Positions 55,109 to 61,344 of a stretch of DNA of 64,000 bases are shown in pieces (position 1 is the stretch's first letter; each line of letters starts with the position of its first letter). The stretch spans positions 9,564,899 through 9,628,898 of the forward strand of contig OZ005694.1 in assembly GCA_963930775.1 (NCBI GenBank). Direction: 5' to 3'. This stretch comes from Cliona cf. orientalis. Lineage: Eukaryota; Porifera; Demospongiae; Clionaida; Clionaidae. Below the pieces are notes generated by a model. The model saw nothing but the letters and a program-made list of their open reading frames with translations, searched no databases and was not told where the DNA came from. Position numbers and translations under genes: made by a program.

Positions 55109-55799
55109 AATTACCATACCATATCTCTAGTGGGAAATTTTCACTGGTGCAAAATTTTTCAGAGTTATCCCCACACCCCCAGGCCTTCAGAAAAGAGATT
55201 TTTGTGGTTCAAATTAGAGGTTGAAATCTCTCTTTCTCTCTCTCTGTCAACATGCATACACTCAGGTGCTGATATTGCCAATATTGTGAACGAGGCCACC
55301 TTGCATGCGGCCAGGTTCAAAGGTGCTTTCGTCTCCGAACGTGACTTCGAGTACGCCATTGAGAGGATCATTGCAGGTACATGTTCGTGTATCATGTGAT
55401 TGTCATGTGACTGTCATGTGACCGATCACCTACCCCAGGCATGGAGAAGAGGAGTAATGTGATGTCACCGGCCGAGAGGAGAGTGGTGGCGTTTCACGAG
55501 GCGGGTCATGCTCTGACCGGGTGGATGCTCGAACACACCGACCCCCCGTGCGGGGCATATAGGGGATTACGTGGGGATTTGCACCGCCTCCATATCAAAT
55601 CCCCGCCCACTGGGAGTGTTCAAGAAAAACAATCCCCTATAAACCTCCTATAGCCACCCCGGGGGTTGATAGGGGATTTGTCATATTTCACACACAAATG
55701 CACACATTTCTACAGGTATAATGTCAAGATTTGAAGTGTTATATTTTTCTCAATAATAATTGTTAATATTACAATTCTCAAGGACTACAGAAGCTATAA

Positions 55800-56956
55800 T
55801 TATCTGCACTTTTCACACAAAAATTCTTCAGGGGCAACTGTAATGCCCAGACAAACAAAATGGTACCATGTGTCACACGATTCACAGCCAATCCACTGTT
55901 CCTCGGCCTCAGTGAACTCAAGGTAGGGCTCATGGCAAGCCCCACAGTAGTACTCACTTCCTTGCTTTGTTGCTTTCTGTTTCTCCCGGGCTTTCCTCTT
56001 CCTAGTTTCAGCAGCCTTTGCAGCTCCTCTTTTTCTATTCTGCTTGATGGTATTCAAGTGTTCTAACCAAATCTTAACTTCTTCAACTTTAAGGAGTGTT
56101 CTCTGAGCAAGTTGCAAGTACAATGATTCCTCAGGAGGATACTTTTCCAGTGCATCAAAGGCTTCCTTGAGGATAACAGATGGTGGTACCATAGGACTCA
56201 GTGATGAACTTAAAGCTTCCACAGGTTTCAAAAAATGCCCAATACACGGTCCACTGCAATCGGTGCAATTGCTGCTTCCCCAGCAACGCTGTGGATCTGG
56301 AATGGGGAGGGGAAAGGTAGAAATTGATGGTCCACCGTCATACCATTTTGGTAGTTCAGATAGGTCTCCTTTTTTACATATAGGATGGCTGCATTGAGTG
56401 TTTAGGCAGCAAATCAGAAAGAAAGCATATTGCCCTGGGAGATTTGGCACACTGTGACTTCGTCTGATCTTCCACACCTGCTCAAAATAAGCATAGAGAT
56501 TTGGTTTCTCCTTCTTAAGCTTTTCAACCTGTTGTTTAGAACCCTTTAGATACTGCAAAAGGTATGCACGGGTGGTTTGTTGCTCACTAGAATCAGCTCC
56601 TCGATAGAGATGGATGACTGTATCCCCACATGAGCATTCATTAACTCGATTAATGTATACATCAGTTGCTAAATTCATATTCCTTTCATACTTCTCTTTA
56701 TTTAGTGTATTTCCATCCATGCACGATCCTCCGAGGGTTGAAGGGATAAACACATTAGCATGTGCAACTGCAAGACATCCATTTTGAAGTTCTACTCGAT
56801 TCAGGTAGCTGGAACCGCTGTTGCGAGCAGTAACAAGGGTTGCTATAGTGCCCTTGGATAGGTGCCTCGCTGCCCACATGAATTGAATCTCTTCATGTCC
56901 GGGTCCTTCATCAGAGGCGCCATCTACCCTGATGCATTCAATGGATTTGTATTCAC
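55800..56956 (-). CDS. Transposon protein, second half of the core plus PHD finger
   Basis: The acceptor CATAG|GTGAATAC at 56956 completes G|GT and continues EYKSIECIRVDGASDEGPGH; VDGASDEGP (Asp codon 56922-56924) is a candidate second catalytic acid. A cysteine cluster CTDCSGPCIGH follows mid-way, then a basic stretch (KRGAAKAAETRKRKAREKQK). The last about 50 residues form a PHD finger with C-x2-C ... C-x2-C-x4-H-x2-C ... C-x2-C spacing (CGACHE, CESCDTWYHFVC, CEKC). Stop at 55800-55802. Confidence 0.72.
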
Positions 56957-56972
56957 CTATGAACCCTTGACC

Positions 56973-57513
56973 ATCTCCCCAGTAGCTGCACAGTGTAATG
57001 GTGCATGTGGTAAAAGGTCGTCAATAGAATGCACATCGATCGATGCTGGCCCCAGAAATCATGGAGATGGCGTCTAAGATCGACTCCCAATCTTGATAGC
57101 GACAAGTTTCGATGCTTCAATCACAGAGACAAACTCGACAACACAGTATTCCTTCCGAAGTTCAGGTTGGTCACGCTGCTGCAGTCGCGCGCGGGCCAGC
57201 CCCTTGTGGCAGTGATGCGTGCTATATATAGCGCAAGGCTAGCTTTATTTATCCATGGCATTACGTAAGCCAAAAAAACACGTGAAGTTCAACCAACAGT
57301 ATTTCTCAGAGAAAGTAGCGCTCAGCTTGTAATCTATTCGCTGGATACACGCGTAAGATACTCTACATATTTACTGATTTTCAAGTCTCAGAAAGGCTCC
57401 AGCGAGGCCCTGAATTTTCTCATAATTACCTCATAGATTACACTATAGGTTTCATCATAATTACACTATAATTACCTCATAACCACAGAAAAGTAAATTG
57501 CTACTGGGGAGAT
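56973..57513. mobile_element. MITE nested in the transposon's intron
   Basis: Perfect inverted ends ATCTCCCCAGTAGC and GCTACTGGGGAGAT. The interior matches 32293-32787 and 33180-33410 (GATGCTTCAATCACAGAGAC and GCGCAAGGCTAGCTTTATTT). It lies between the two halves of the transposase, inside the intron 56957-57797. Confidence 0.85.
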
Positions 57514-57534
57514 AACATGTATTAGAAGAAAGAC

Positions 57535-57790
57535 CACAATGTTATGACCATGTATACTCAGGGTATGTGGAATGAGGTGGGGATGTGCGAAATACATGTG
57601 CTATGATCAATTCCTTAGGGTACAAGGAGTGGGATGGGGATGTACAAAATACATGTGTTATGACCATGTATACTCAATTCCTTAGGGTATGTGAAGTGGG
57701 ATGGGGATGTATGAAATACATGGCATTGTGTTATGACCATGTATATCAATTCCTTAGGGTATGTGAAAGTGGGTGGAGTGATGTATGAAA
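57535..57790. repeat. Short tandem repeat, about 65-bp units, in the transposon intron
   Basis: Four degenerate units of CAATTCCTTAGGGTATGTG, AGTGGGATGGGGATGTA and GAAATACATGT, ending at the exon donor. Non-coding. Confidence 0.75.
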
Positions 57791-57797
57791 TACATAC

Positions 57798-59725: not shown

Positions 59726-60465
59726 TTCGCTGATTGGCCTCCCTGATTGTCCACAACAGGGAGGCCCTTGTGAAAAGACTCGTCACCCTCTGCAATCAGG
59801 TCATCATCATCACCAGATAGTAACACTGTATCGTGACTCTCATTAGCACTTTCTGTTCCAGACTCTGACCGTGGCTGAGGACTAAATGCTGAGTTGTCGG
59901 AGGAAGTAGAAGACAGTGATTTCTTCTTGGAATAGTAACCCTTCGATCTAGTGTCTTTTTTGGTGAGCTCCTTTAATTCTAGTTCCAATGTACGACACTC
60001 CTTTGACAAAGCTGAAATTTCTTCTGTTATGTCATCGCACAGCTTGTAGTTTCTCTGATCCTCAGCCATCTGTCGTCTTTTCTCTTTGTACGACATACGA
60101 TCCTTCAAATGCTTGATCTCATCTTCAACCGTTTTCATTCGTTCAATTCTAAAGTCTTTATTCAGCTTCTTCCGCTTTGGTTTTGAGCTACCAGGATCAC
60201 TTTGTTCTGAGTGACGTTTTGAACGGCTTTTACCCTTCTTAAACTGGTAGGTTTTGTTAACTTCTTCTTGAGCTGCCAACAGTAGTTTATGATGACTACG
60301 AAGCATGGTAGGATTTTTTATACATATACCCTGTGCAACCTCATTTATTTGTTTTTGATAGTCGGTCAGTTTTCTTAGTGATTCTTTCTTGTATATTATA
60401 GCAAGCTCCCGAATTTCAGCCTCATCTAGTACCCTGTCAGCATCAAGTGTAGGCATGGCATGCTC
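59722..60465 (-). CDS. Transposon protein, coiled-coil segment
   Basis: The acceptor TTTGTAG|GAG starts at 60465. It encodes a helical region with a Lys/Arg-rich nuclear-localisation-like patch (KKGKSRSKRH, KPKRKKLNK) and a coiled coil (MKTVEDEIKHLKDRMSYKEK onward), then a Ser/acidic tail. The frame ends at TGA 59722-59724, while the next block continues in another frame (SGRPISELIDIYKL read-through). A small frameshift near 59730-59760 is therefore likely. Confidence 0.65.
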   Translation of the reverse strand, partial: EHAMPTLDADRVLDEAEIRELAIIYKKESLRKLTDYQKQINEVAQGICIKNPTMLRSHHKLLLAAQEEVNKTYQFKKGKSRSKRHSEQSDPGSSKPKRKKLNKDFRIERMKTVEDEIKHLKDRMSYKEKRRQMAEDQRNYKLCDDITEEISALSKECRTLELELKELTKKDTRSKGYYSKKKSLSSTSSDNSAFSPQPRSESGTESANESHDTVLLSGDDDDLIAEGDESFHKGLPVVDNQGGQSAN

Positions 60466-60626
60466 CTACAAATCAAAATGTAATTTGAAAACAATGAGCA
60501 CACCCACAAAGCCAGACAAAACCATACACTGATGCACCTAAAGCCAGACAAGTATTGGTAGTTTACATAACCACAAGGCTTCACCATTCCTTCAACACAT
60601 AGGCAATGTACACATTCACTGCTCAC

Positions 60627-60812
60627 CTCCACTCCAAGTAGTTCTCGATTCAAGGTAAGGCCTGTTGGTGAAAATTCAAGACGTGTTTGAACTGGTACTC
60701 TTGGTTGGTTCCGAGTGGCTGTTGGGGTAGCTTGAGATGACTGACCAGCATCGGACTGGGGTGAAGATGACTGAACAACTTCATTTTGCGGCTGAGTACA
60801 GTCAGATTCTGG
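60627..60812 (-). CDS. Transposon protein, exon 2 (low-complexity linker)
   Basis: 62 codons, phase 0 at both ends (acceptor ATATACAG|CC, donor GAG|GTGAGC). Rich in Ser, Gln and Pro, with no domain seen. It links the N-terminal module to the coiled-coil exon. Confidence 0.6.
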
Positions 60813-60909
60813 CTGTATATTTAATATAAAACATACAGTACAACGGTAGCACAGTATCATACAGTGAGCTATATAAATATCCGGGTAGCTCTTTTATTCG
60901 AATACTCAC

Positions 60910-61167
60910 CTTTTTTATTTCTACCGCATTCAAAACTGCTCTTTGAGGTATTTCTTGATCTTGGATATCGAGAAATTCATCGATTCCCCAGCTGGTATCC
61001 CTCATTTGAAAGTACAACTCGCTATCCTTGAGAAGCACGTCGCTAAACTTCTCCTTCGTCGCGCAAGCAAGTTCCTTTTTTCCGCCACGGAACGTAATAG
61101 GTCTATTGCGGCTGCCAGAAGAAGTTTGCAGACGCACCAACACCGTCTTCTCTACCTCGACGTCCAT
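60910..61167 (-). CDS. Transposon protein, exon 1
   Basis: 86 codons, phase 0, start ATG at 61167. Begins MDVEVEKTVLVRLQ and has a compact beta-rich look with FRGGKKELACATKEKFSDVL; this may be a small ubiquitin-like or DNA-binding fold, which is inference. The donor is AAAAAG|GTGAGT. An upstream in-frame ATG at 61296 lies in the element's terminal region and is less likely. Confidence 0.65.
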
Positions 61168-61344
61168 CTTGTCTGACACTCTTCTCGATCTTTCGATGAA
61201 AGAGCACGTGGCGTATACGCATGCGCACACATAAGCACAATCTCGGAATGTGCTGATTGCAAATCCCCTGCGCCCTCGGGGCGGTTCCAGGTACAAAAGT
61301 ATAAAATCCCCCTACATATCCCCCTATAGAGCCCGCACGGGGGG

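Follow-up and report, generated by a model that had tools for sequence, protein, structure and literature searches.

DNA transposases that carry a PHD finger have been described in Rehavkus (PMC6446971) and in Ginger1-9_HM (PMC2836005), and the PHD finger of RAG2 binds trimethylated lysine 4 of histone H3 (H3K4me3) and inhibits transposition until displaced (PMC11844651). In bacterial insertion sequences (IS), programmed -1 frameshifting commonly acts as a throttle. In IS3/IS1-type elements programmed frameshifting, often -1, joins the catalytic domain to the generally DNA-binding product of an upstream open reading frame (ORF), and the frameshifting level determines how much transposition occurs (PMC5009743). 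Among eukaryotes, the domesticated hAT transposase Kat1 of Kluyveromyces lactis is expressed through programmed frameshifting (PMC4763223), and precedents exist in ciliate elements (PMC5009743), the Tec2 case being a tyrosine recombinase gene. Literature searches, which covered open-licence papers, found no programmed frameshifting in an animal DNA element. The locus analysed here lies in a 64,000-nucleotide stretch of the sponge Cliona cf. orientalis (contig OZ005694.1, positions 9,564,899 to 9,628,898; the whole stretch is called the window), in which an earlier note had described an unassigned minus-strand DNA transposon from the sequence alone. The best explanation of this element, and one that we consider probable, is a decayed copy of a cut-and-paste transposon of no recognised superfamily that makes two products by -1 frameshifting, with the fusion product as transposase and a PHD finger that would bind histones.

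The genome (216.8 Mb, 149 contigs) was searched with the conserved protein core of the element. The 37 matches, several of which are pieces of one copy, were grouped into 29 loci including the window, which establishes a multi-copy element and not a chance resemblance. Twenty-one copies were read, namely the window copy and 20 of the other 28 loci (L009-L028, about 9 kb each); eight of the 29 core loci were left out. Complete family ends read TGCACCTATCAA... with 0-2 mismatches and adjoin TTA or TAA; L025 has a variant terminus. All nine long copies with two ends (L009, L012, L016, L017, L018, L022, L025, L026 and L027) are flanked by matching 3-bp duplications of TTA or TAA, and the remaining 12 copies, with one end each in hand, have TTA or TAA beside it in every case. 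A DNA search with one end gave 78 matches (40 of 107 candidates scored): besides the query copy itself there were 39 further left ends, and 38 partner ends in inverted orientation. At least 39 short copies resembling miniature inverted-repeat transposable elements (MITEs) were present, their inverted partner ends about 280-290 bp away. Twenty of these were fetched and all had matching duplications (TTA in 9, TAA in 11), so that TTA/TTA or TAA/TAA was found in 29 of the 29 two-ended copies read (9 long copies and 20 MITEs). The family is a terminal inverted repeat DNA transposon. Copies L017 and L018 are 99.86% identical over 5001 bp, on separate contigs and with different duplications (TTA and TAA), and the family has therefore moved recently. 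Uninterrupted frames of the second ORF (ORF2), 804-1275 amino acids long, occur in 10 of the 20 non-window copies; the window copy is for this reason a poor representative of its family. Outside this genome, viral contigs yielded no homologs (a single pattern match, L042, is a chance frame), prokaryote contigs gave one pattern match assumed to be chance (L043), and phages and plasmids yielded no homologs with one query core.

The C-terminal PHD finger, which had been read by eye from the window, was confirmed by Pfam (PF00628, E 3.3e-7, above the Pfam cut-off), and the corresponding segment was found by tblastn in all 21 copies, although damaged in some. In 11 copies (window, L009, L011 and L013-L020; frames compared by hand) it shares one open frame with the part of ORF2 that holds the second candidate catalytic Asp (D2) and the candidate Glu (E). 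In L012 it lies 553 nt beyond the point where the core frame closes, in L021 it is in another frame and in L022 it contains a stop; L010, L023 and L027 lack some pieces of it, and L026 has lost one Cys. The finger is genuine and recurrent in the family. Such fingers had been called rare in cut-and-paste transposases; they are not unknown there, as Rehavkus and Ginger1-9_HM attest, and RAG2 carries one. For residue comparison 13 of the 21 fingers were aligned, omitting the near-duplicates L009, L015, L018, L020 and L024 and the damaged L010, L023 and L026. The second position of the expected methyl-lysine cage is Tyr or Trp and a Trp precedes the His position in all 13 fingers, and a Trp precedes the second Cys pair in 12. 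The closest solved fingers (PDB) of the window copy include those of KDM7 (E 2.2e-7), TAF3 (1.5e-6) and BPTF (1.1e-4), which are readers of histone H3 methylated at lysine 4 (H3K4me). By its residues the finger is thus predicted to bind a methylated histone tail, of the H3K4me type. Alternatively it may not read histones but act as a zinc fold in dimerisation or in binding the ends, given that transposases can use zinc-binding C-terminal domains to bind DNA or to assemble; the residue preceding the first Cys is aromatic in just 7 of the 13 aligned fingers, and Cys replaces the His ligand in L019 and L028. This alternative is possible, if on balance doubtful, and against it stand the retained cage-type aromatic residues and the kinship with known H3K4me readers.

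Cores of eight copies were aligned together with two window frames (alignment A1). The motifs NRDD, RVDGA.DEGP and N.VELQNG are near-invariant. In eight ORF2s the gap between the first candidate catalytic Asp (D1) and D2 is 102-109 and the D2-E gap is 43 throughout, so that a conserved acidic triad with fixed D2-E spacing, as is general for DDE/RNase-H enzymes, is present in 8 of 8 ORFs. The acidic motifs NRDDAAGF and VDGASDEGP and the cluster CTDCSGPCIGH, which had been picked out in the window, are present there and conserved in related copies. These motifs suggest a candidate D...D...(43)...E cutting site, on what would be an RNase-H fold. Pfam searches at E<=10 gave only PHD-type or weak unrelated matches, both for six long ORF2s and for the ten members of A1 (in the A1 scan HMMER filters discard most matches above 0.1), and NCBIfam gave only weak unrelated matches for four proteins. 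The profile search proposed earlier for the core matched no transposase family in the copies scanned, and measured against Pfam and NCBIfam the suggestion of a poorly described superfamily holds. The family is provisionally assigned to no recognised superfamily and may already be named in Repbase.

Substitution patterns point to constraint on the transposon protein. Between the window copy and L009 the ratio of nonsynonymous to synonymous rates (dN/dS) was 0.41 over 475 codons, an overstated value because about 20 of these codons lie past the frame break of the window copy. In the last coding exon (exon B) of the same pair, the proportion of nonsynonymous differences (pN) was 0.006 and that of synonymous differences (pS) 0.034 (381 codons). 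Five distant ORF2 pairs gave pN 0.37-0.40 against pS 0.75-0.79, which is saturated by the Jukes-Cantor formula. In the last 58 columns, the PHD end, pN was 0.32-0.37 and pS 0.55-0.86 in three pairs; two pairs with L012 were uninformative here, as the frame of L012 lacks the finger. L017 and L018 have zero ORF2 differences, and the ratio of 0.89 for L019/L020 rests on too few changes to tell. In L019 (3443-7021) and L020 (3191-7015), a variable in-frame tandem repeat (EQSQHRPEGG...) links the transposase core to the PHD finger; the two copies are near-identical yet differ in repeat number.

It is somewhat unlikely that the family is instead a very divergent member of a known superfamily with 3-bp duplications, either Zator (relatives of bacterial ISAzo13/TP36) or PIF/Harbinger. 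A TTA/TAA duplication is the signature of PIF/Harbinger (PMC4482050), and a 3-bp duplication also fits Zator (PMC10045372); the E motif GSSYLNRVE resembles GTSKWNKIE of ISAzo13, whose D-E spacing is similar (42, counted by eye). Neither PF13359 nor PF07592, however, matched any scanned copy (six long ORF2s at E<=10; ten A1 members), while PF13359 had 143 matches elsewhere in the same genome, so that such searches work here. Comparison by hhalign with 10 ISAzo13 proteins gave nothing, and with an ISAzo13 hidden Markov model (HMM) eight real cores scored no better than 200 shuffles, the profiles being shallow in both tests. The available passages of PMC10294476, PMC7386202, PMC8533490, PMC12730594, PMC6875170, PMC7175516 and PMC4411706 held no closer match to the family. 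Two PF07592 matches in the genome fall outside the family. Locus L029 encodes what by eye is a different DDE-like protein, with GHTKFAPDRLF, a weak PF07592 match (E 9.5e-5) and a frame broken by one TAG.

The first ORF (ORF1) has relatives among the NAB co-repressors, an animal protein family. Eight of the 21 copies were scanned for ORF1 domains with Pfam, and seven matched NCD2 (PF04905) at E<=0.003: L014 (1.7e-8), L011 (8.5e-7), L013 (1e-6) and L017 (1.7e-5), all four above the family cut-off, then L019 (4.8e-5), L012 (7.4e-4) and the window (2.8e-3); the ORF1 fragment of L016 gave no match. Genome-wide, 19 of 20 NCD2 matches lie at loci of the transposon family, and the strongest (E 1.9e-18) is the outsider C13:8663168. 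Its ORF also bears SAM_NCD1 and is therefore taken as the host NAB gene (L064:609-2504); SAM_NCD1 has one genome match at E<=0.01, in this gene, and none in transposon copies. The region from NCD2 to the coiled coil of the host gene is homologous to ORF1. A profile of 11 ORF1s found the host NAB protein at E 1e-23 (hmmsearch), where the best of 300 shuffles reached 0.89. In hhalign the two align over 175 columns (98.9%), which extend across the coiled-coil region as far as the terminal S.RYF.KK. By these comparisons ORF1 is homologous to animal NAB co-repressors; the link may stem from domestication or from capture. The coiled-coil exon of the earlier description was confirmed, as coiled-coil-like.

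The earlier note had described a spliced minus-strand gene. Introns are indeed predicted, but the change of frame from ORF1 to ORF2 looks like programmed frameshifting and not simple splicing. The junction is held in 18 of the 21 copies and is absent from the fetched stretch in L010, L024 and L028. In seventeen copies the site is T_TTT, with its TTT read in frame 0, and reading in the -1 frame leads into ORF2, which closes soon after the junction in decayed copies such as L023 and L011. The codon after T_TTT is a stop in 9 of the 17 (TGA, TAA or TAG) and the stop lies one codon later in 5 more; it lies 16 codons past the slip site in the window and L009, and 10 codons past it in L027. L022 reads CCA AAT TTA in frame 0, which is a canonical heptamer (A_AAT_TTA), and its ORF1 is broken by an upstream stop. 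A GC stem starts 7 nt past the slip site, or 6 with an outer G-C pair, in 16 of 18 copies (8 in L022, 11 in L025). Folding z-scores of the hairpin ranged from -2.5 to -6.7 (18 copies, four of them refolded).

Covariation was assessed on 11 of the 18 junctions, omitting the near-duplicates L009, L018, L020 and L026, the short-loop pair L015/L016, which MAFFT misaligned, and L011 with its bulged stem. Among these 11 chosen sequences 95% of 120 cells pair, and changes on both sides occur in 6 of 11 stem pairs. None of 500 shuffles reached the observed pairing, two-sided changes or covariation score, and slid controls paired at 35-61%. A covariance model built from the 11 recovered all 18 junctions among 21 sources; the sequences outside the training set included L015 and L016 (both E 1.1e-7) and L011 (0.0012), the others being near-duplicates. 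Its remaining 17 matches were junction hairpins read from the opposite strand, and the 245 kb searched contained no further match. The exact pattern TTTT-N7-GCCTCCC-N6..20-GGGAGGC, which misses the variant stems of L011, L012, L017, L018, L022 and L025, occurred 17 times in 217 Mb, that is at 15 distinct places, two of which are palindromic hairpins counted on both strands; the reversed control gave 0. Thirteen of the 15 sites overlap ORF2 matches, one on C4 lies within 100 nt of such a match, and the fifteenth (C1:35965119) has an NCD2 match on its own strand at a distance of about 0.8 kb; all 15 are assignable to the family.

An in-frame slippery site, a short spacer and a downstream structure were found together in 18 of 21 copies. 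They form a textbook signal for programmed -1 frameshifting, and the transposase appears to be made only via the slip. Start codons and splice sites were surveyed in 16 of the 18 junction copies (L012 and L022 left out). The first ORF2 methionine lies 16-101 codons past the slip site in 12 of the 16 and 3 codons past it in L019, L020 and L026; in L023 the ORF2 frame closes before any methionine. Because the first methionine is so distant in the 12 copies, the ORF2 N-terminus that divergent copies conserve (GRP..EL) would not be made from an ORF2 start of its own. Splicing as the link is very improbable. In that reading ORF1 and ORF2 would be joined by an intron ending at the T-rich stretch (3' splice site in TCTTTT..AG), and the hairpin would be incidental. 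In its favour, the sequence just before the stem resembles a pyrimidine tract with AG in several copies (e.g. L017 TCTTTTTAAGCAG, L014 ...GACCAG), other introns are predicted in the gene, and L021 has a donor-like site 518 nt upstream plus AGs. Against it, L013 and L023 lack any AG in the interval from the last stop of the -1 frame to the conserved PP codons, and no GTRAGT or AGGTRAG donor occurs within 600 nt up to the slip site in 13 of the 16 copies, which makes splicing unlikely as a family-wide explanation. In the 17 T_TTT copies, moreover, an open ORF1 stretch of 42-454 codons leads to the slip site; a stop lies within one codon of that site in 14 of them, with three different stop codons, and the stem covaries. 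Runs of 4-6 T are probably too short to cause transcriptional slippage.

Several observations weigh against a frameshifted transposase with a histone-binding finger. The window copy is itself broken, and the frame-0 stop beside its slip site is lost. In 17 of 18 copies the slippery site is a tetramer where the canonical signal is a heptamer. As many further pair types as in the real stem turned up in 79 of 500 shuffles, and two of the six covarying pairs come only from L025, in which the stem may be shifted in register. The candidate catalytic triad is a motif argument, because no transposase family matches. The uneven residue before the first Cys of the finger and the two replaced His ligands belong on the same side.

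In the mechanism proposed for the frameshifted transposase, ribosomes that stay in frame 0 would yield only the ORF1 protein, which is NAB-like and includes a coiled-coil-like segment. A minority would slip back one base at T_TTT, stimulated by the hairpin 6-7 nt downstream, and would make the ORF1-ORF2 fusion that serves as transposase. The fusion would bind the TGCACCTATCAA... termini, cut with its D...D...(43)...E site and integrate at TWA through cuts staggered by 3 bp. The PHD finger at its C-terminus would bind a methylated histone tail and might direct insertion to marked nucleosomes or, like RAG2, keep the enzyme shut until the mark is met (PMC11844651). By analogy to bacterial IS, frameshifting would keep the enzyme low and may let ORF1 regulate the transposase (PMC5009743). 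A bolder version, in which an undescribed animal superfamily is controlled by -1 frameshifting, the PHD finger guides or gates insertion, and ORF1 is the source of NAB through joining of SAM to a domesticated ORF1, is speculative and in our estimate unlikely. A covarying signal in a recently mobile animal element would extend the logic of the frameshift throttle, and the NAB link offers a testable origin for the co-repressor family.

Table 1. Features of the transposon copy in the window (positions of the window; strand. where none applies).
Feature	Position	Strand	Remarks
Decayed transposon copy	55541..61371	-	left outer end truncated, right end complete; by BLAST to sister copy L009 and termini
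Left terminal inverted repeat	55541..55576	.	outer 26 bp missing by comparison with L009
ORF2 exon B	55800..56956	-	second candidate D, candidate E, Cys clusters, PHD finger
PHD finger with conserved aromatic residues	55806..55952	-	
Cysteine cluster CTDCSGPCIGH	56235..56267	-	alignment A1
Cysteine/histidine cluster CCLNTQCSHPIC	56376..56411	-	alignment A1
Candidate catalytic Glu, NRVELQNG	56778..56801	-	D2-E gap of 43 residues
Candidate second catalytic Asp, RVDGASDEGP	56901..56930	-	
Last intron (prediction)	56957..57797	-	holds 555-bp foreign insertion, 56960-57514
ORF2 exon A, -1 frame	57798..59773	-	N-terminal portion of transposase with first candidate D; interrupted near 58418
Candidate first catalytic Asp, NRDDAAGF	58075..58098	-	
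Helix-turn-helix-like stretch KVTYERIRQHL...FSFGTVVQLC	58279..58362	-	by eye; conserved in alignment A1
Exon 3, remainder of ORF1, frame 0	59722..60465	-	stop 16 codons past slip site in window copy
Putative frameshift-stimulating hairpin GGCCTCCCTG...CAGGGAGGCC	59736..59766	-	6 nt past slip site
Slippery site T_TTT, frame-0 codon TTT	59773..59776	-	
Coiled-coil-like segment	59920..60150	-	colinear with host NAB protein
NAB conserved region 2-like domain	60217..60417	-	PF04905, E 0.0028 in window, stronger in relatives
Exon 2 (prediction)	60627..60812	-	
Exon 1, start codon, donor GTGAGT (prediction)	60910..61167	-	open spliced translation
Complete right terminal inverted repeat, ...GGGGGGTAGTGGGGCGTAACATTGATAGGTGCA	61332..61371	.	
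TTA adjoining right end	61372..61374	.	expected target duplication; left partner lost

Compared with the span of 55543..61344 given earlier, the right end of the window copy lies 27 bp further out (...TTGATAGGTGCA, then TTA), and the left end lacks its outer part. Inverted termini are present as had been claimed (55541-55576 and 61310-61345 are 81% complementary), but CCCCGTGCGGGGC, offered as the repeat, is only the inner part of the terminus and the true ends are longer. Outside the intron the copy is 97-98% identical to L009 (BLAST). Relative to that sister, a 4-nt duplication near 58418 breaks ORF2, and the last intron holds the foreign insertion. The insertion has 14-bp inverted ends (ATCTCCCCAGTAGC), and a 94% copy of it lies at L013:5974-6541, just past another transposon copy. 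Imperfect repeats of about 57-72 nt occupy 57545-57795 of the same intron and occur also in L009 and L010. On the plus strand, exons of an AFG3L2/FtsH-type gene (54529-55540; AAA and Peptidase_M41 by Pfam) abut the truncated left end, and in three forward-frame translations inspected by eye no continuation of this gene was seen downstream of the element. Near the right end, 61574-61626 and 61845-61897 form a 53-nt inverted repeat (92% complementary, 218 nt apart), which may be another small element.

Among described systems, PIF/Harbinger (PHIS) shares the TWA target duplication, a second protein beside the transposase and MITEs. Its DDE_Tnp_4 domain (PF13359) is not matched here; its second ORF has Myb/SANT, whereas ORF1 here is NAB-like with no Myb/SANT listed in the eight copies scanned, is apparently joined to ORF2 by frameshifting and is accompanied by a PHD finger. 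Zator and ISAzo13 share the 3-bp duplication and a local likeness around the E motif, and differ in that no PF07592, HMM or profile-profile match was obtained and in the PHD and NAB-like parts found here. The NAB co-repressors share NCD2 and a coiled-coil region colinear over the 175 columns and differ in SAM_NCD1, which is in the host protein and unmatched in transposon copies. Bacterial IS3/IS1-type elements correspond in their fusion by frameshifting, but the gene here is intron-bearing and eukaryotic and the proteins are unrelated. Kat1 is likewise a eukaryotic transposase with programmed frameshifting, but a domesticated yeast hAT and not a mobile animal element. Rehavkus (MULE-related) and Ginger1-9_HM share a PHD finger in a eukaryotic DNA transposase; Rehavkus has a 9-bp duplication and a MULE core, in contrast to a 3-bp duplication and no MULE Pfam match here, and Ginger1 has an integrase (rve) core and a 4-bp duplication, neither of which was found here. 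RAG1/RAG2 is likewise a transposase-derived enzyme with a PHD finger, which in that case sits on a separate subunit beside a Transib core. A PHD finger on the transposase chain itself would make it possible to ask directly whether histone marks guide cut-and-paste transposition or switch it, a question discussed for RAG (PMC11844651).

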